DNA of 36,175 nucleotides from Planctomycetales bacterium 4484_113 (lineage in GTDB: Bacteria; 4484-113): positions 1 through 36,175 of the forward strand of contig MVCR01000002.1 of the NCBI GenBank assembly GCA_002050035.1, written 5' to 3'. Below are positions 9,658 through 17,470 of this stretch, piece after piece (the stretch's first letter is position 1; every line of letters begins with the position of its first letter). The notes beneath the pieces were generated by a model, which saw nothing but the letters and a program-made list of their open reading frames with translations, was not told the origin of the DNA and did not search any database. The position numbers and the translations under genes were made by a program.

Positions 9658-10491
9658 ATGGAGTCTGACGCTCAACTAGAAACCCGCCACAACGCGGATG
9701 GCGAACTCGAGAGCGTAATCTCAATGCTCGAGCGGGTGCAGGCGCGGTACAACTACCTGCCCGAAGAAGCCCTGCGGAAGGTCGCCGCCGAGACCGGGCG
9801 GTCGATGGTCGACATCTACGGAGTCGCGACTTTCTATCGAGCCTTCAGTCTCAAACCTCGCGGCAAGCACCTGGTTTCGGTCTGCCTGGGCACCGCCTGC
9901 CACGTCCGCGGCGGGCCGATTATCGCCGAGGAGTTCGAACGGCAGCTCGGAATCCGCCGGGGGGAGACCACGGCGGACAAGGAGTTCACGCTTGAAACCG
10001 TGAACTGTCTGGGCGCATGCGCGCTCGGCCCCATCGTCACGGTGGACGGTCATTACTTCTCCCACGTAAGCACGGGCAGAGTGAAGAAAATCCTCCAGCA
10101 AGCCCGGGAGGGACTGGACGTGGTTGAAGTCAAGGCCGACGAGCGGGTCTTTCCGGTCGAGGTGAGCTGCCCCCACTGTAATCACAGTCTGATGGATGAG
10201 CGCCATCTCGTCGACGGACGACCGTCTATACGGGTGACGATATCATTCGGCAAGAAGCACGGCTGGCTATGCCTGTCGAGTCTCTACGGAAGCTATAACG
10301 TCGAATCAGAGTATCCGATCCCCGATAACATAGTGGCGCACTTCTTCTGTCCGCACTGCCACGGCGAGTTGCTCGGCACTACGGACTGTCCGGAGTGTGG
10401 CGCCCCCATGGTGCGGATGATGATTCGCGGTGGCGGCATGGTTCAGATTTGCTCGCGCCGCGGATGTAAAGGACACATACTGGACATTTAA
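9658..10491 (+). CDS. NuoE/HydC-like [2Fe-2S] subunit with C-terminal zinc-ribbon domain (StnC-like)
   Basis: Thioredoxin-fold [2Fe-2S] protein, about residues 1-155, fused to an extra domain of about 110 residues (277 in total). The cluster ligands are C76, C81, C117 and C121 in CLGTACHVRGG and NCLGACALGP, the NuoE/HydC/HoxE pattern. The added part has CPHC (171-174), CPHC (231-234), CPEC (244-247) and CSRRGC (265-270), i.e. paired cysteines as in zinc ribbons. It may hold zinc or further clusters. The ATG has an AAGGAAG Shine-Dalgarno that the leader RNA could sequester. It is the first gene of the operon, 52 bp before the NuoF/NfnB fusion. In the family this subunit is a peripheral electron carrier of NADH-oxidising complexes. 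Confidence 0.88.
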   Translation: MESDAQLETRHNADGELESVISMLERVQARYNYLPEEALRKVAAETGRSMVDIYGVATFYRAFSLKPRGKHLVSVCLGTACHVRGGPIIAEEFERQLGIRRGETTADKEFTLETVNCLGACALGPIVTVDGHYFSHVSTGRVKKILQQAREGLDVVEVKADERVFPVEVSCPHCNHSLMDERHLVDGRPSIRVTISFGKKHGWLCLSSLYGSYNVESEYPIPDNIVAHFFCPHCHGELLGTTDCPECGAPMVRMMIRGGGMVQICSRRGCKGHILDI

Positions 10492-10543
10492 GCTACACCA
10501 CGACTAGTATTCGAAGCAGAACAACAATTCGAGGAACCACCGG

Positions 10544-13500
10544 ATGCAGAAGCTATCATCAGTTGATGAACTCAAGAATTTCCGCCGGCTGATTCTGGAC
10601 GAGCCGGAGGAGGAAAAGCCTTGCCTGGTGATATGCGCGGGAACCGGGGGCCAGGCCAGCGGCTCAAACGACATAATCCGCGTCGTCAAACGCGAGATCC
10701 TGGAGAAGAACCTTCAGGAAGAGCTGTCGTTGCGGATTACCGGCTGCCAGGGGTTTTGCGAGATGGACCCCTTCATTCTGGTGGAGCCGGAACTTAATCT
10801 CTACACCCGCCTGAAGATGGAGGATGTTCCTCGCATTATCGATGCCGTAGCGGAGGGACGAGTGGTCGAAGACCTCCTGTACAGACCCGCGGGTGAGAAC
10901 AAGCCCTACCACTGTCAGAAGGACATTCCGTTCTTCAAGAAGCAGACGCGAACCATCCTCGGGTCGAACCAGAAGGTGGACCCGATTAGGACCTACGATT
11001 ACATCCGCAGGGATGGATATGCGGCGCTGGAGAAGGTACTCAGTAACCCTGAGCCCACCTGGATTATTGAAGAGGTCAAGCGTTCCGGGCTGCGGGGTCG
11101 AGGTGGCGCGGGTTTTCCTACCGGAAAGAAGTGGGAACTGGCCCGTGCTTCGGGAAACGGAGCAACGCAGAAGTACCTTGTCTGCAACGCGGACGAGGGC
11201 GACCCCGGTGCCTACATGGACCGAAGTCTCCTTGAAGGTAATCCTCATGCCATCATCGAAGGGATGCTGATTGGTGGGATTGCCATTGGCGCGACCAAGG
11301 GCTTCATCTACGTTCGCAGTGAATACCCGCTGGCAATTAAGCACACGCTAATCGCGCTCCGGCAGCTCCGAGAGATGGGTCTGTTGGGGAAGAACATCCT
11401 TGGTACCGGCATCGATTTTGAGATAGAAATCGTCCGCGGTGCCGGTGCCTTTGTTTGCGGTGAAGAAACCGCACTCATTCGGTCTATCGAGGGACTGATG
11501 GGCGAGCCGCGGCAGCGCCCTCCGTACCCCATCCAGAAGGGCATCCACGGTAAGCCGACGGTGATCAATAACGTCGAGACGTTGGCGAATATCCCCGTGA
11601 TCATACGGGAAGGGGCCGATGAGTACGCCAAGATAGGCGTTCCCGGAAACACCGGTACCAAGATATTCAGCTTGGTCGGCAAGATTCGCAACACCGGTCT
11701 GGTGGAAGTGCCGATGGGGATAACCCTCGGCGAGATTGTCTACGACATCGGCGGCGGCGGCATTGGCGGCGCGAAGATAAAGGCGGTGCAGACCGGTGGG
11801 CCTTCTGGAGGTTGCATACCTGCCAGCAGGTTTGACCTTCCCGTGGACTACGACAGCCTGACCGAGGCCGGGTCCATCATGGGTTCTGGCGGCATGATCG
11901 TGATGGACGAAAACACCTGCATGGTCGATGTCGCCAAGTACTTCATGAACTTCCTCAAAGACGAGTCCTGCGGGAAATGCTACACGTGTCGAAAGGGCAC
12001 GCAGCGGATGTACGAGCTGCTCGACGATATCTCGAAGGGCAAAGGCACCCTGGCCCATCTCGACCTGCTGGAGGAACTGGCCATTGCGGTCAAGGAATCG
12101 TCGATGTGCGGACTTGGCCAGACCGCGCCCAATCCGGTGCTGTCCACCCTGCGCTACTTCCGGGACGAGTACGAAGAGCACATTCTTCAGAAGAGGTGCC
12201 GCGCTTTTGTCTGCAAGGACCTGGTGGGAGCTCCCTGCCAGAGTGCCTGCCCGCTAGACACGGAGGCATGGCGCTATGTCGCACACATTGCGCGCGGCGA
12301 GTATGAGGATGCTTACCGGGTTATCCGGGAGGCAAACCCCTTCCCGTCCGTATGCGCCCGTGTCTGTAGCCATCCCTGCGAGGACAAATGCCGCAGCGGC
12401 ACTCTCGGCGGTCAGCCCATAGCCATCCGGGCGCTGAAACGCTTCATTACCGACCGTGTCGATCCCTCGGTGTACGAGCCGAAACGCATCTCGACCAACG
12501 GGAAAGAGATGCCGCCGGTGGCTGTGGTCGGTGCTGGGCCGGCAGGGCTTACGGCGGCGCATTACCTGTCGCTGCATGGATACAAGGTCACCGTATTCGA
12601 AGCAGACCGCGAGCCGGGCGGGATGCTGGTTAGCGCTATCCCGCCATACCGGTTGCCGCACGATGTGCTGCGTAGAGAAATCGAAGCGCTGATTGATGAG
12701 AATATCTCACTTAAGTGCAATCAGGTGTTGGGCAGGGACTTCTCCGTTGATAGCCTCCTCGGCGATGGCTTCAAGTCCGTCTTCCTTGCCATAGGCGCGC
12801 ACAAGAGCCGCCATCTCAACGTGGAGGGGGAAGATAGCGAGGGCGTCTTCCCTGCCATCGATTTCCTCAAGGCATTCAACATGCGGAATGAGAAGCTTGC
12901 GCGAGGGCGCGTGGGCGTTATCGGTGGCGGTAACTCGGCGGTGGATGCTGCACGAGTTGCATTACGCCAGGATGGTGTCGAGAGTGTGACTCTGCTCTAT
13001 CGGAGGACGCGGAGAGAAATGCCCGCCCTGTCGGATGAAGTTGATGCCGCCATCGAGGAAGGTGTCAAGCTGGAAACGCTGGTCTCGCCTTCAGCCATCC
13101 ATCAGGAAGCGGGGCGGGTGACCGCCGTTGATTTCATCAGGAACCGACTGGGCGATGTGGACAGCAGCGGCAGGCGCCGACCAGTGCCGATTGAGGGAAG
13201 CGAATTCACGCTTCCGTTCGACACCCTGATCGTCACCATCGGTGAAATACCCGATACCGACAGTGTCTCCGGTATGGGCGTTGAGGTGAACGCCCGGGGA
13301 ACGCTGGCGGTTGACGAAGAGACTCTTTCCACTAACCGTCCGGGTGTATTCGCCGGCGGTGACGTGGTTACCGGCCCGAATACGGTTGTGGAGGCCATTG
13401 CCGCGGGGAAGAAGGCAGCAGTGATGATTGACCGTTATTTGCGCGGCGAAGAACTGAAACAACCTGTTCAGGCCAAACTGCCCGAAGTGTATGTGGAGCC

Positions 13501-13732
13501 GGTCATGCTCGACGAGGAGGAACTGGCTGCTGCCGAACGTGCGGAGCCGCCTGCGATTTCAGTTGAGCAGCGAACTCACAGTTTCGATGAGGTTGAAATG
13601 CCGCTGTCGGTGGAAGCCGCCACCAGCGAGGCACGGCGGTGCTTGCGGTGCGATTTGGAGTTCACGCAGCCAAAGGAGGAGAAAACCTCCGTGGAAGTGC
13701 CGGTATCGGCTGACAAAGGTGGCTCAGCATGA
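10544..13732 (+). CDS. NuoF-NfnB/GltD fusion: NADH- and NAD(P)H-binding flavoprotein subunit (StnB-like)
   Basis: 1062-residue fusion. Residues about 1-115 are a degenerate thioredoxin-like [2Fe-2S] domain (C27, C31, C68, C72). About 135-550 is NuoF: GRGGAGFPTGKKW and NADEGDPGAYMDR (FMN and NADH binding), then the [4Fe-4S] ligands SCGKCYTC (C476, C479, C482) and C522. About 552-1040 is an NfnB/GltD-type flavoprotein: a Cys-rich segment (C557, C565, C569, C604, C608, C612, C616) for [4Fe-4S] clusters, FAD site VVGAGPAGLTAA (661-672), NAD(P) site GVIGGGNSAVDAA (791-803), FAGGD, and terminal CLRC. This fusion is characteristic of Stn-type electron-bifurcating transhydrogenases, which exchange electrons among NADPH, NAD+ and ferredoxin. 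It lacks the C-terminal 2x[4Fe-4S] ferredoxin domain found on many HydB proteins. The 3' end overlaps the next gene by 4 bp (ATGA). Confidence 0.9.
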   Translation: MQKLSSVDELKNFRRLILDEPEEEKPCLVICAGTGGQASGSNDIIRVVKREILEKNLQEELSLRITGCQGFCEMDPFILVEPELNLYTRLKMEDVPRIIDAVAEGRVVEDLLYRPAGENKPYHCQKDIPFFKKQTRTILGSNQKVDPIRTYDYIRRDGYAALEKVLSNPEPTWIIEEVKRSGLRGRGGAGFPTGKKWELARASGNGATQKYLVCNADEGDPGAYMDRSLLEGNPHAIIEGMLIGGIAIGATKGFIYVRSEYPLAIKHTLIALRQLREMGLLGKNILGTGIDFEIEIVRGAGAFVCGEETALIRSIEGLMGEPRQRPPYPIQKGIHGKPTVINNVETLANIPVIIREGADEYAKIGVPGNTGTKIFSLVGKIRNTGLVEVPMGITLGEIVYDIGGGGIGGAKIKAVQTGGPSGGCIPASRFDLPVDYDSLTEAGSIMGSGGMIVMDENTCMVDVAKYFMNFLKDESCGKCYTCRKGTQRMYELLDDISKGKGTLAHLDLLEELAIAVKESSMCGLGQTAPNPVLSTLRYFRDEYEEHILQKRCRAFVCKDLVGAPCQSACPLDTEAWRYVAHIARGEYEDAYRVIREANPFPSVCARVCSHPCEDKCRSGTLGGQPIAIRALKRFITDRVDPSVYEPKRISTNGKEMPPVAVVGAGPAGLTAAHYLSLHGYKVTVFEADREPGGMLVSAIPPYRLPHDVLRREIEALIDENISLKCNQVLGRDFSVDSLLGDGFKSVFLAIGAHKSRHLNVEGEDSEGVFPAIDFLKAFNMRNEKLARGRVGVIGGGNSAVDAARVALRQDGVESVTLLYRRTRREMPALSDEVDAAIEEGVKLETLVSPSAIHQEAGRVTAVDFIRNRLGDVDSSGRRRPVPIEGSEFTLPFDTLIVTIGEIPDTDSVSGMGVEVNARGTLAVDEETLSTNRPGVFAGGDVVTGPNTVVEAIAAGKKAAVMIDRYLRGEELKQPVQAKLPEVYVEPVMLDEEELAAAERAEPPAISVEQRTHSFDEVEMPLSVEAATSEARRCLRCDLEFTQPKEEKTSVEVPVSADKGGSA

Positions 13733-14454
13733 TTAATCTGAAGATAAACGGTCTGGATGTCTCGGTTGAAGAAGGCACCACCATTCTGGAGGCTGCTCGG
13801 TTCATTGGCTTCCCCATCCCGACGCTCTGCCACAACGATGGGCTCTCGCCCTACGGCGCTTGCCGGCTGTGCCTGGTGGAAATCGGCGAGCCCCCGCGCA
13901 GCAAGCTGGTGACCTCCTGCACCTATCCGGTTGAAGAAGGGCTCATCGTGCGCACGGATACGGAGCGGGTAATCCGGACCCGCAAGATGGTGATCGAGCT
14001 TCTGCTGGCATCCTCGCCGATGTCGAAGACTATTCAGGACCTGGCGTCGAAGTACGATGTGCACCAGCAGCGCTTCAAGCAGGAGTTTGAAGAATGTATT
14101 ATGTGCGGGCTTTGCACCCGCATGTGCGAGGAGCAGATGATGGCTAAGGCCATCGGCTTCCGCGGGCGCGGTCAGAACCGCAGCATCGGCACGCCTTTCG
14201 ACATTACCTCCGAGGAATGCCGGCGGTGCGGCGCGTGCATGTACATCTGCCCCATTTGCATGGCGCGCTGTCAGGGGCCGCAAGAGGAATCGCCGCTCTG
14301 CAACGCTTGCCTCAACCTGTCGCCGCCCTGTGTGGAAACCTACGGGCAGAAGATGTGCTACATGGACCCGTGCGTCGCCTGCGAATTGGCCGGCCCTTAC
14401 CGGAAGGACAAGCAGCGCAAGGAGAAAGAAGAATCAGCCCCGGTTGCTCGCTGA
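13729..14454 (+). CDS. NuoG-N/HydA-N-like iron-sulfur subunit (StnA-like)
   Basis: 241-residue electron-transfer protein. A plant-type [2Fe-2S] domain comes first (C34, C45, C48, C64). There is no His-ligated [4Fe-4S] site, and then two [4Fe-4S] ferredoxin motifs: CIMCGLCTRMC (123-133) and CRRCGACMYIC (164-174). The tail after residue 175 carries eight more cysteines (177, 181, 191, 194, 201, 210, 215, 218), including CNAC and CVAC, which could bind one or two further clusters. There is no hydrogenase H-cluster or molybdopterin domain, so it is not HydA or full NuoG. It overlaps the preceding gene by ATGA, implying translational coupling and a 1:1 complex. Its likely role is to carry electrons between the flavoprotein and ferredoxin or a partner enzyme. 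Confidence 0.88.
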   Translation: MINLKINGLDVSVEEGTTILEAARFIGFPIPTLCHNDGLSPYGACRLCLVEIGEPPRSKLVTSCTYPVEEGLIVRTDTERVIRTRKMVIELLLASSPMSKTIQDLASKYDVHQQRFKQEFEECIMCGLCTRMCEEQMMAKAIGFRGRGQNRSIGTPFDITSEECRRCGACMYICPICMARCQGPQEESPLCNACLNLSPPCVETYGQKMCYMDPCVACELAGPYRKDKQRKEKEESAPVAR

Positions 14455-14523
14455 GAATGGGCGTCCGTGGGCATTCGCTGTTGGCATGAATACGATGATA
14501 CTCTTGGATACTAGGAGGAGAAA

Positions 14524-16104
14524 ATGACTTTCTCGCGAATCAACTCAAGTGCTGCCACACTGAGCAAGAACCGGACGGAGGATTCCATAATTCCGTCCAG
14601 TGGCATGTGTGCTACCTGCATTGACGGCTGCATCGGCATGTGCGAGATAGGCAAGTCCGCCTACCGGGGGCACGAGGTGGCCTATCCCCAACCCTTCGGC
14701 ATCATCACCACCGCCGGGGAGAAAGATTACCCGATCGACTACTCCCACTTCAACATCATGGGAACCGCGGTGGGCGCGGTGGGCATCGAGGCCGATAGCG
14801 ATAAAGCCATCTTCCCGAACGTGGATCTTGAAACCAAGGTGGGTCGTAATCCTGGCGTCAGGTTCAAGCTTCCCTTCATCATTCCGGGATTGGGTTCAAC
14901 CGACGTCGCCAAGAACAACTGGCCCGGACTGGCCATCGGCTCGGCTCTTGCCGGCACCGCACTGACCATCGGGGAGAACGTCTCCGGTATGGATGTGGAG
15001 AGTAAGCTCAAGGGGGGGAAGGTGATTTCGGCTCCCGACCTTGAAGAGCGCATCCAGTTGTTCAGGGAATGGCAGCAGGATGGCTATGGCGACGTCATCC
15101 TGCAGGCCAACGTCGAAGACACCATGCTCGGAGCCCAGGAATACGCACTCGCCAACCTCGGTCTGACAACGGCGGAGCTGAAATGGGGCCAGGGCGCCAA
15201 GGATATCGGCGGTGAGGTGAAGATTAAGAGTCTCGAGAAGGCGCAGCTGCTGAAGGAGCGAGGATACATAGTCTTGCCGGATCCAACCGACCCGGTGGTG
15301 GTGGCGGCGTTCAAGAGCGGCGCGTTCAAGGAGTTCGAGCGCCACTCACGCGTGGGGATGGTCACGCGCGAGAGCTTTCTCAAGCGTGTGGAGCAGCTCC
15401 GCGAAGCGGGCGCGAAGAACATCTTCCTCAAGACCGGAGCCTACCGGCCCGCAGACCTCGCGCGTGCCGTCAAGTTCGCTTCGGAAGCCGAGATTGACCT
15501 CCTTACAATCGATGGTGCGGGCGGGGGTACCGGTATGAGTCCCTGGCGCATGATGAACGAGTGGGGCGTCCCAGCAGTCGAGCTGCACTCTCTGGCCTAT
15601 CAGTATGTCGACCGGCTGGCGAAGAAGAAGGAATTCGTCCCCGACCTTGCCTTCGCCGGCGGGTTCACCCTTGAGGACCAGATATTCAAGGGCTTGGCGC
15701 TCGGCGCTCCCTATGTGAAGCTGATAGGAATGGCGCGGGCGCCGCTGGCTGCCGCTATGGTGGGCAAGACCATCGGCAAGCGCATTGAAGAGGGCTTGAT
15801 GCCGGTATACGTGGAGCGTTTCGGCACCACCAAGGACGAGATCTTCGTGACCGCTCCTGAGCTCAGGGAGAAGCTGGGCGACCGTTTCGACGATGTTCCG
15901 ACCGGCGCGATCGGGCTCTACACCTACTACGAGCGATTGGCGCAAGGTCTCAGGCAGTTAATGTGCGGATGCCGGAAGTTCGCATTGAAGCACATCTCCC
16001 GGGACGATATCGCCGCTCTGACTCGTGAGTCCGCCGACGTCAGCGGCATCACTTACATCACCGAAGTGGACAAGGAAGAGGTTGACGCTATCCTGGAGGC
16101 CTGA
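14524..16104 (+). CDS. FMN-binding glutamate synthase family protein (GltB2-type core, no glutaminase domain)
   Basis: 526-residue barrel protein of the glutamate synthase FMN-domain family. It matches the central domain of GltB and the stand-alone archaeal/anaerobe type. Family features are PFIIPGLGSTDVAKNNW, GQGAKDIGGEVK, IFLKTGAYRPADLA, the FMN/substrate loop DGAGGGTGMSPW, LAFAGGFTLEDQIFKG and the phosphate-site GAPYVKLIGMARA. An N-terminal extension has CATCIDGCIGMC (C29, C32, C36, C40), a likely [4Fe-4S] site, followed by YRGHEVAYPQPFG. Near the C-terminus is LMCGCRKF instead of the classical three-Cys [3Fe-4S] motif of GltB. No amidotransferase domain is present or adjacent, so the nitrogen donor is unclear. 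AGGAGG Shine-Dalgarno before ATG 14524; 69 bp after the iron-sulfur subunit, probably the same operon. Confidence 0.88.
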   Translation: MTFSRINSSAATLSKNRTEDSIIPSSGMCATCIDGCIGMCEIGKSAYRGHEVAYPQPFGIITTAGEKDYPIDYSHFNIMGTAVGAVGIEADSDKAIFPNVDLETKVGRNPGVRFKLPFIIPGLGSTDVAKNNWPGLAIGSALAGTALTIGENVSGMDVESKLKGGKVISAPDLEERIQLFREWQQDGYGDVILQANVEDTMLGAQEYALANLGLTTAELKWGQGAKDIGGEVKIKSLEKAQLLKERGYIVLPDPTDPVVVAAFKSGAFKEFERHSRVGMVTRESFLKRVEQLREAGAKNIFLKTGAYRPADLARAVKFASEAEIDLLTIDGAGGGTGMSPWRMMNEWGVPAVELHSLAYQYVDRLAKKKEFVPDLAFAGGFTLEDQIFKGLALGAPYVKLIGMARAPLAAAMVGKTIGKRIEEGLMPVYVERFGTTKDEIFVTAPELREKLGDRFDDVPTGAIGLYTYYERLAQGLRQLMCGCRKFALKHISRDDIAALTRESADVSGITYITEVDKEEVDAILEA

Positions 16105-16119
16105 TAAGCTCCGCCCGGT

Positions 16120-16132
16120 CTGGCGAAGCCAG
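16120..16132 (+). terminator. Small hairpin after the glutamate synthase gene
   Basis: CTGGC-GAA-GCCAG forms a 5-bp stem with a 3-nt loop in the 115-bp gap before the dehydrogenase gene. There is no T-run. It may be a partial terminator or a processing signal. The rest of the gap shows no convincing promoter. Confidence 0.25.
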
Positions 16133-16219
16133 TAGATAGTTGACTCTCATCGACTGGTCACATGCAGGTTCGTCCAGATTCAGTATTCTTGAAGCCTGGA
16201 GCATTCAAGGAGGAAAGCG

Positions 16220-17470
16220 ATGTCTGAAGAGGCGAATCCACGGTTGATGGCGAACAAGCAGCTTGACCTCGCTGCAGAAGTCCTGGGCCTTGATCCGAAC
16301 TTGCACGCCTTTCTCCGCGAGCCGATTATGGTAGTCGAGGTCTCCGTTGCCGTCCGGCTGGATGACGGTAGAATCAGGCTGTTCAAGGGATGGCGCAGCC
16401 AGCACAACAGATTCCGCGGCCCCACCAAGGGCGGTATCCGCTACCACCCGGACACGAACCTGGAGGAAGTGGTGGCGCTTTCGATGTGGATGACCTGGAA
16501 GTGCGCGCTCGTGAATCTGCCTTTCGGTGGCGCCAAGGGCGGTGTCTGCTGCAACCCTCCGGAGATGAGCCGGGGGGAACTGGAAAGGCTCACCCGCCGC
16601 TACACCTTCCTGCTGAGTCCTTTCATTGGGCCGGAGAAGGACATTCCTGCTCCCGACGTGTACACCGATGCCCAGACGATGGCGTGGATAATGGACACCT
16701 TCAGCATTCTCAGCGGCTATACCGTGCCCGGCGTGGTCACGGGCAAGCCGGTGGACCTCGGCGGGAGCGTCGGAAGAGTCGAAGCCACCGGGCGCGGCTG
16801 CGTGTTCACCATTCGTGAAGTCCTCAAGCACCTCGGAATTGACCCCGAAAAAACCACCGCTGCCGTCCAAGGTTACGGCAATGTCGGCTCGAACGCCGCC
16901 TGCCTGCTTACCGACCTCGGGGTGAAGGTGATTGCTGCCACGGACGTCCACGGAGGCGTCATCAACCGTGATGGACTGGACACGCGTGCTCTCAAGCAGC
17001 ACGTTGGCGAAACTGGCTCCGTGGTCAGCTTCCCGGGGACTTCTCCTATCTCGAACGAGGAGCTGTTCGCCCTGGATGTGGACATCCTGATTCCGGCCGC
17101 GATGGGCAATGTCATCACCTCCCATAACGCGGGGAAGATCAGAGCGAAGGTGATCGGTGAGGGGGCCAACGGCCCGACAACTCCCGAAGCTGACCGGATT
17201 CTCCGCGACAACGGCGTGTTTGTCATCCCGGACATCCTCGCCAACGCCGGCGGCGTCACTGTATCCTACTTCGAGTGGGTGCAGAACCTCTATAACTTCC
17301 ATTGGGACGAGAAGCGCGTGAACCACGAGCTGGAGAAGGTGATGGTGCAGGCGTTCAACGAAGTCCACGAGATGGCGAAGGAGAAGCAGGTGGACAATCG
17401 GACCGCCGCTTACCTGCTGGCAGTCGATCGAGTGGCGCGAGCGGGCGCAGAACGCGGGCTCTTCCCGTAG
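16220..17470 (+). CDS. gdhA: Glutamate dehydrogenase (Glu/Leu/Phe/Val dehydrogenase family)
   Basis: Reversible oxidative deamination of glutamate to 2-oxoglutarate and ammonium, 416 residues, hexameric type. The substrate and catalytic region shows FKGWRSQHNRFRGPTKGGIRYH, K94, PFGGAKGG (catalytic K106) and PAPDVYTD. The Rossmann domain has VQGYGNVGSNAA (216-227), and D242 after beta-2 (IAATDVHG) favours NAD over NADP. Also present are EGANGPTTPEAD and ILANAGGVTVSYFEWVQN. A strong AAGGAGG Shine-Dalgarno supports ATG 16220. It follows the FMN glutamate synthase on the same strand, so the locus as a whole points to glutamate metabolism. Confidence 0.96.
   Translation: MSEEANPRLMANKQLDLAAEVLGLDPNLHAFLREPIMVVEVSVAVRLDDGRIRLFKGWRSQHNRFRGPTKGGIRYHPDTNLEEVVALSMWMTWKCALVNLPFGGAKGGVCCNPPEMSRGELERLTRRYTFLLSPFIGPEKDIPAPDVYTDAQTMAWIMDTFSILSGYTVPGVVTGKPVDLGGSVGRVEATGRGCVFTIREVLKHLGIDPEKTTAAVQGYGNVGSNAACLLTDLGVKVIAATDVHGGVINRDGLDTRALKQHVGETGSVVSFPGTSPISNEELFALDVDILIPAAMGNVITSHNAGKIRAKVIGEGANGPTTPEADRILRDNGVFVIPDILANAGGVTVSYFEWVQNLYNFHWDEKRVNHELEKVMVQAFNEVHEMAKEKQVDNRTAAYLLAVDRVARAGAERGLFP

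Follow-up and report, generated by a model that had tools for sequence, protein, structure and literature searches.

A GltS-like FMN protein gene conserved behind Bfu genes, and the Glt-Bfu complex predicted from it

Genes for NuoE-like, NuoF-like, and NuoG-like proteins, followed directly by one for a protein resembling the FMN core of glutamate synthase (GltS), raise the question of whether the four products work together and, if so, on what substrate. This arrangement was found in Planctomycetales bacterium 4484_113, whose genome assembly is 1.54 Mb long and 77% complete. The window, that is, the whole stretch of DNA analysed (36,175 nucleotides), is one of its contigs. A sequence-only reading had described five genes on one strand here; all five open reading frames were recovered, each with Pfam support.

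9658..10491, + strand: BfuC/NuoE-like protein, 277 aa (PF01257, 155 bits)
10544..13732, + strand: BfuB-GltD fusion, 1062 aa (PF01512 + PF10589 + Fer4_20 + Pyr_redox_2)
10544..12187, + strand: BfuB/HydB core of the fusion, residues 1-548 (PF01512, PF10589; structure match 7t2r_B)
12188..13732, + strand: GltD module of the fusion, residues 549-1062 (PF14691, PF07992)
13729..14454, + strand: BfuA without H-cluster domain (NuoG-N/HydA-N-like), 241 aa (Fer2_4, Fer4_7)
14524..16104, + strand: GltS-like FMN TIM-barrel protein, 526 aa (PF01645, partial)
16220..17470, + strand: glutamate dehydrogenase (GDH, ELFV), 416 aa (PF00208/PF02812)

From these coordinates, the intergenic gaps along the five genes are 52, -4, 69, and 115 bp. 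The negative value is the ATGA overlap of the BfuB-GltD and BfuA genes at 13729-13732, which had been pointed out before and is real. GGAGG stands immediately 5' of the starts of the GltS-like and GDH genes, and no Rfam family was found near the unit in the window and the 11 of 80 related loci scanned. The first four genes (9658-16104) probably encode one complex, to judge from the comparisons below; we name it Glt-Bfu here.

Conservation of the four-gene unit and the BfuA tail

Relatives were collected by a profile scan of the GltS-like family in one genome per species (84,980 species), with a query alignment (A1) that included one row (L042) in which a stretch was N. At least 529 relatives were detected and the best 80 were kept. 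In this closest clade, the only one that the adjacency count describes (68-74% identity; best 80 of at least 529 relatives), BfuA was encoded directly upstream of the GltS-like gene on the same strand at 79 of the 80 loci; at the 80th (L061), the GltS-like match begins at base 21 of the contig. The loci were labelled with 19 named phyla, and 12 had no phylum label. Because the first four genes keep the same order across phyla, the arrangement is far beyond chance. BfuB was present at 75 and BfuC at 63 of the 80 loci, the absences falling at contig starts except in L116, where a BfuA fragment stands beside the GltS-like gene and no BfuB was found in the 8.5 kb upstream; the genome of L116 also carries an intact second copy (L150). 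At 75 loci, BfuB and BfuA were separated by a median of -4 bases, BfuA and the GltS-like gene by 27. The unit seems to stop at the latter, since the first downstream gene was on the same strand at only 37 of 74 loci.

The sequence-only reading had listed GDH among the five genes and proposed a survey for adjacent FMN-GltS and GDH genes. The GltS-like part of that expectation held (79/80 loci) and the GDH part did not: GDH-family genes are occasional neighbours (10/80 loci), the one in the window lying 115 bp downstream. Pairwise distances of the GltS-like protein correlated with those of BfuA (r = 0.88) and BfuB (r = 0.71) over 68 rows, and none of 999 permutations reached the observed values. 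When the 80 loci were searched for fusions of BfuA to the GltS-like protein or to BfuB, no single open reading frame gave matches to BfuA as well as to the GltS-like protein. Five odd long open reading frames proved to be out-of-frame artefacts.

BfuA matches Fer2_4 with 62.6 bits and Fer4_7 with 28.3 bits (cut-off 27). Its ligands for one predicted [2Fe-2S] cluster (C34, C45, C48, C64) and two predicted [4Fe-4S] clusters (C123-133, C164-174) are conserved in 76 of 76 rows. An H-cluster domain is absent from its 241 residues, where hydrogenase models match only N-terminal ferredoxin-like parts, far below their cut-offs. The protein ends in a Cys-rich tail (C177, C181, C191, C194, C201, C210, C215, C218), each cysteine of which is kept in 70-76 of 76 rows; in the AlphaFold model (pLDDT 58) the tail is not readable.

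In the genomes searched, this tail is private to the unit. Among 51 unit-carrying genomes (G068, G098, G101, and G104 omitted, six further genomes added), the tail-bearing form occurred once per genome (315-418 bits), at the locus of the GltS-like gene. The other BfuA-like proteins of these 51 genomes scored at most 230 bits, and their alignments, two excepted, ended before model position 200 and so missed the last tail cysteines. We also searched 385 genomes picked as relatives, with at most seven or three candidates scored per genome, which makes the counts lower bounds: all 24 tail-bearing BfuA loci (in 23 genomes) adjoined a GltS-like protein of at least 66% identity. Conversely, 24 of the 26 GltS-like loci with at least 65% identity had a tail-bearing BfuA; the exceptions were G330, where the contig ends 112 bp upstream, and G143 (L132), at 65%. 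None of the GltS-like loci at 60% identity or below in the 385 genomes had one alongside. Neighbourhood conservation of the bifurcating and FMN GltS-like genes, which the sequence-only reading had proposed as a check, is therefore very strong (BfuA upstream at 79/80 loci; a GltS-like gene beside 24/24 tail-bearing BfuA). The adjacency of the tail-bearing BfuA and the distance correlation are strong evidence, though not proof, for the physical partnership that we predict. The partnership of the genes is well supported, and the reaction is a prediction.

Subunits and the optional GltD module

The BfuC ligands of a predicted [2Fe-2S] cluster (C76, C81, C117, C121) were kept in 62-63 of 63 rows, and the cysteines of its C-terminal, Cys-rich, zinc-ribbon-like extension in 51-52 of 63 (window row included in both). 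Its top match among solved structures was HydC (8a6t_C, 140 bits). The BfuB core consists of an N-terminal thioredoxin-like part, the FMN/NADH domain, and 4Fe-4S ligands, and its top match was NiFe-HydB (7t2r_B, 681 bits over residues 28-562). For an SLBB domain in BfuB, PF10531 scored 20.3 bits (cut-off 27). C476, C479, C482, C522, and the pair C552/C557 were conserved in 70 of 70 rows; we read the first four as ligands of the B1 cluster, and the pair, just past the core, is probably B2. The Pfam domains used here for BfuB were presumed equivalent to the InterPro numbers of the Bfu paper.

In the window, the Fer4_20/DPD_II di-cluster of the GltD module replaces the usual ferredoxin tail of BfuB and is followed by FAD and nucleotide sites. 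By a homology-based count, 50 of the 75 relatives with readable BfuB carried GltD and 25 did not. The B3/B4 ferredoxin-type tail, absent from the window's BfuB, belongs to the class all the same, as all 25 unfused relatives have a CxxCxxxC..CxxCxxxC motif within their last 75 residues (2[4Fe-4S] ferredoxin-type tail). On a 68-row tree of GltS, BfuA, and the BfuB core, the presence and absence of GltD took 12 parsimony changes, at least six of which are required by well-supported branches (SH-aLRT at least 95, without bootstrap). GltD was thus changed repeatedly beside a constant GltS-like partner; therefore, the low-potential entry site appears to have been exchanged repeatedly. The best structure matches of the module were the StnC-type chains 9bov_A (376 bits) and 8oh5_C (320) and 9n5u_A "NfnA" (367), all ahead of NfnL 5jca (267). 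We take 9bov_A, a chain of 1178 aa, to be StnC by its size and partners.

Concerning the GltS-like protein, its PF01645 match (51 bits, cut-off 20.4) covers residues 280-400 only. An hhalign comparison of its profile with seven PF01645 proteins, five of which are archaeal-type GltS cores, gave 98.3% probability over 300 columns, and the QGAK..GG and GGTG loops align between the protein and the GltS cores; with E. coli GltB alone, the value was 15.5%. The FMN domain is accordingly homologous to GltS. Glutamate synthases carry [3Fe-4S] cysteines after the synthase domain, seen in the seven PF01645 rows as invariant C450/C456/C461; none were found there in the GltS-like protein. It has only six cysteines (29, 32, 36, 40, 481, 483), and all 33 of 33 rows keep the N-terminal CxxCxxxCxxxC that the first four form. 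These four are also retained in family members that fall outside the Bfu clade and have no adjacent Bfu genes. Pfam detected no glutaminase domain in the protein, and GATase_2 was not found in the window's own genome (77% complete). The AF2 model and fold searches placed the protein in the FMN TIM-barrel superfamily, with matches to IDI-2 and to glycolate and lactate oxidases. GltS was absent among the 50 fold-search matches listed, which carries no weight against GltS homology; the barrel is general to the superfamily, so that the fold leaves the substrate undecided. Compared by sequence with solved structures, the protein or its family gave weak matches only, mostly designed TIM barrels.

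Nitrogen context and canonical GltS

GDH was the commonest family among the nearest flanking genes scanned (7 of 95, hand-picked from 132). Twelve GDH-family genes, at 10 of 80 loci, lay in flanks totalling 709 kb, where about 0.26 would be expected. The expectation is rough (66 genes in about 180 Mb), since it combines a BLAST count with a Pfam density and leaves kinship out of account. More distant family members that lack Bfu genes adjoin NrpR, GAF-ANTAR, carbamoyl-phosphate synthase, GDH, and glutamine amidotransferases (57 of 62 neighbours surveyed, plus three already known from L038, L039, and L043); without those three, NrpR accounted for 3 and ANTAR for 1 of the 57 neighbours. Bfu genes are missing from L132 (65% identity), whose copy sits inside an operon with a CCG/4Fe-4S protein, GATase_2, an archaeal-type GltS core, and a GXGXG protein (four neighbours scanned separately), followed by MTHFR genes. 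In L043, an archaeal-type GltS core and a GATase/GXGXG protein occur within about 8 kb. These neighbourhoods support glutamate chemistry, and the link to glutamate and nitrogen metabolism suggested earlier is backed by the GDH, NrpR, and GltS-cluster neighbours. Since L132 and L043 are placed inside or close to a complete GltS cluster of the archaeal type, another role is also possible for the family.

Does Glt-Bfu stand in for canonical GltS? Family searches covered 49 unit-carrying genomes, namely the window's own and 48 hand-picked from those of the 80 loci, many of them incomplete. A strong canonical GltS domain (at least 80 bits) was found in 15 and was missing from 34, including six single-contig chromosomes; GATase_2 was found in 7, GlnA in 44, and the GDH family in 45. 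Among the 385 genomes, canonical GltS was detected in 9 of 23 Glt-Bfu carriers versus 211 of 362 others (p = 0.08), counts that are lower bounds because at most five candidates were scored per genome and one control genome out of 14 (Synechococcus) escaped detection. The proportions were 2/8 carriers versus 27/52 others in a smaller set of 60 genomes. Comparing 15/49 with the same 362 genomes gave p = 0.0004, the two sets not being matched by phylum. A replacement of canonical GltS by Glt-Bfu is possible and weakly supported by these counts. Absence of canonical GltS is common in general.

Predicted reaction, alternatives, and known systems

The scheme of the Bfu paper has a BfuBC core that takes electrons from NADH and from a low-potential carrier, and a BfuA that relays them to a third substrate (PMC9304861). 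The ligands found conserved in BfuC, BfuB, and BfuA fit this scheme. Applied to Glt-Bfu, NADH would enter at the BfuB FMN and the low-potential electron at the BfuB tail, from ferredoxin in unfused members; in fused members, including the window's, NADPH and perhaps also ferredoxin would enter through the GltD module. From the BfuA clusters, electrons would travel along the Cys-rich tail of that subunit and reach the GltS-like protein at its N-terminal Cys4 cluster. They would end at its FMN, and there 2-oxoglutarate and ammonia, either free or supplied by a glutaminase in trans, would yield glutamate. Glutamate would probably be made without a dedicated glutaminase. The 2-oxoglutarate/glutamate couple has a potential of about -0.12 V. 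The reaction is therefore expected to proceed toward glutamate with dissipation of energy, and ammonium at low concentration could be drawn in by this means without ATP. The couple is already favourable with NADH alone, and the need for confurcation is therefore not obvious.

We tentatively propose that Glt-Bfu is a widespread electron-confurcating glutamate synthase, and regard this as a possibility rather than a probability: it would take up ammonium without a dedicated glutaminase, NADH and reduced ferredoxin would replace the ATP of glutamine synthetase/GOGAT, and gain and loss of GltD would repeatedly swap ferredoxin and NADPH inputs. The main reading, a Glt-Bfu complex that makes glutamate from 2-oxoglutarate and ammonia, is moderately probable in our estimate. 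Against this main reading stand the partial PF01645 match, the lack of [3Fe-4S], the loci L116, L132, and L043, and the missing canonical ferredoxin tail in the window's BfuB, as does the usual co-presence of the GDH family (45/49) and GlnA (44/49). An alternative is a real complex whose FMN subunit uses another 2-oxo acid, an imine, or another nitrogen compound. Low similarity to characterised GltS (hhalign 15.5% with E. coli GltB alone), the missing [3Fe-4S], a fold common to IDI-2 and 2-hydroxy-acid oxidases, and the location of relatives within or close to complete GltS clusters all lean that way; nevertheless, the 98.3% profile match to GltS cores includes both active-site loops, and GDH and nitrogen-regulator genes recur as neighbours, so we hold a different substrate to be unlikely.

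The view that the genes encode a Stn/Nfn-like NADPH transhydrogenase (NADPH to NAD+ and ferredoxin), with the GltS-like protein an accessory or a chance neighbour, draws on the presence of FMN, FAD, and Fe-S modules of a transhydrogenase and on the GltD module of the window's BfuB, which best matches StnC-type chains. However, GltD is missing from 25 of 75 units, yet a GltS-like gene adjoins 24 of 24 tail-bearing BfuA; the GltD state switches at least six times on the tree; and GltD is carried by BfuB, not by the NuoG-like subunit to which the accessible accounts of Stn assign it. We find this reading quite improbable. Still a little less probable, in our estimate, is that one operon encodes two enzymes, BfuABC poising reduced carriers and the GltS-like protein acting as a separate ferredoxin-dependent enzyme through its N-terminal cluster. 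Family members that keep the four N-terminal cysteines without Bfu neighbours would agree with it, but BfuA has no catalytic domain, its tail-bearing form occurred only with a GltS-like gene in the genomes searched, and the two proteins co-vary. The best reading of the sequences is that Glt-Bfu represents a new third-substrate class of the Bfu family.

How does it compare with known systems? The sequence-only reading had held that a NuoF-NfnB fusion defines the Stn transhydrogenase and had assigned the locus to that type. According to the accessible text of the Stn papers, StnB is a plain NuoF/HydB homolog, and the GltD/NfnB-like domain sits on the NuoG-like StnC as a GltD-NuoG fusion (PMC7483475, PMC10482914), which contradicts the definition. 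The assignment fails as well, because GltD is on BfuB here, the 241-aa NuoG-like subunit is without GltD, and 25 of 75 relatives are unfused. As far as those papers describe Stn/Nfn-Bfu of Sporomusa ovata, it shares NuoE-like, NuoF-like, and GltD modules with Glt-Bfu, which differs in its optional GltD on BfuB and in its GltS-like subunit (PMC7483475, PMC10482914). Wor-, Por-, Codh-, and NiFe-Bfu, as presented in the accessible text, have in common with it the BfuBC core, a catalytically empty BfuA, and a clustered extra catalytic subunit; in Glt-Bfu, the third-substrate subunit is GltS-like, the BfuA tail is private, and BfuB may carry GltD (PMC9304861). The same source lists 17 BfuB clades without function, and its main text nowhere uses the word "glutamate" (PMC9304861). 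With GltBD and the archaeal-type split GltS, Glt-Bfu shares the FMN synthase domain, the QGAK/GGTG loops, and, in fused forms, a GltD-type module. Unlike theirs, its GltS-like subunit has no glutaminase, GXGXG, or [3Fe-4S] and carries an N-terminal Cys4 instead, and a bifurcating core is its predicted source of electrons. The earlier suspicion that the GltS linkage is undescribed stands for now, as no Bfu-GltS unit was found in the open-access literature searched, outside of which most subscription papers and preprints fall.

Glt-Bfu offers a testable function class where Bfu clades had none. If the proposal is true, electron bifurcation, so far a matter of energy and redox metabolism, would be tied to nitrogen assimilation, and some bacteria may drive ammonia uptake directly with two electron carriers. 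It could also explain glutamate synthesis, besides GDH, in bacteria without a recognised glutamate synthase domain. A BfuB with DPD_II and FAD has already been described, in the accessible text, for the sub-type I BfuABC [FeFe]-hydrogenase of Hydrogenedentota, where these domains likewise replace the B3/B4 ferredoxin tail; that BfuA has an H-cluster, whereas the BfuA of Glt-Bfu has none and is followed by the GltS-like gene (PMC11406978). In annotation, such BfuB and BfuA genes could pass for hydrogenase or complex I genes.

The C-terminal extension of BfuC

The BfuC protein of the window ends in a Cys-rich extension, and this extension is common to 51-52 of the 63 alignment rows (about four fifths). 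The short BfuC forms, of about 156-190 amino acids, are without it.

Window 10144-10491, forward strand: Cys-rich (zinc-ribbon-like) C-terminal extension of BfuC

A GltS-like gene operon with other partners

At L132, a locus of genome G143, no Bfu genes accompany the GltS-like gene (65% identity). Its operon holds methylene-tetrahydrofolate reductase genes together with those for GATase_2, a GXGXG protein, an archaeal-type GltS core and a CCG/4Fe-4S protein, which we read as HdrB-like. This operon may mark the boundary of the Bfu-linked clade or else its ancestral setting. A methylene-tetrahydrofolate reductase C-terminal (DUF5981) gene was found near the GltS-like relatives at two loci outside the Bfu setting, L132 and L043, which may point to some connection of the family with folate chemistry.

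L132 7617-13242: non-Bfu operon of the GltS-like gene
L132 6158-7613: neighbourhood of GltS-like relative and DUF5981 gene
L043 6568-11037: neighbourhood of GltS-like relative and DUF5981 gene

Relatives from Dethiobacter and Chocolate Pots

Another GltS-like gene (60% identity) and an IclR-type regulator gene were located just upstream of the unit in a Dethiobacter MAG (L049).

L049 3129-5551: genes directly 5' of the unit

The Chocolate Pots relative L106 (RCNQ01000195.1, ChocPot_Mid) has the BfuA and GltS-like genes of the unit. A study drawing on a related-lineage bin from Chocolate Pots (PMC6338057) interprets NuoEFG/HydABC-like genes as a soluble bifurcating hydrogenase; these are possibly the genes of this unit, misread.
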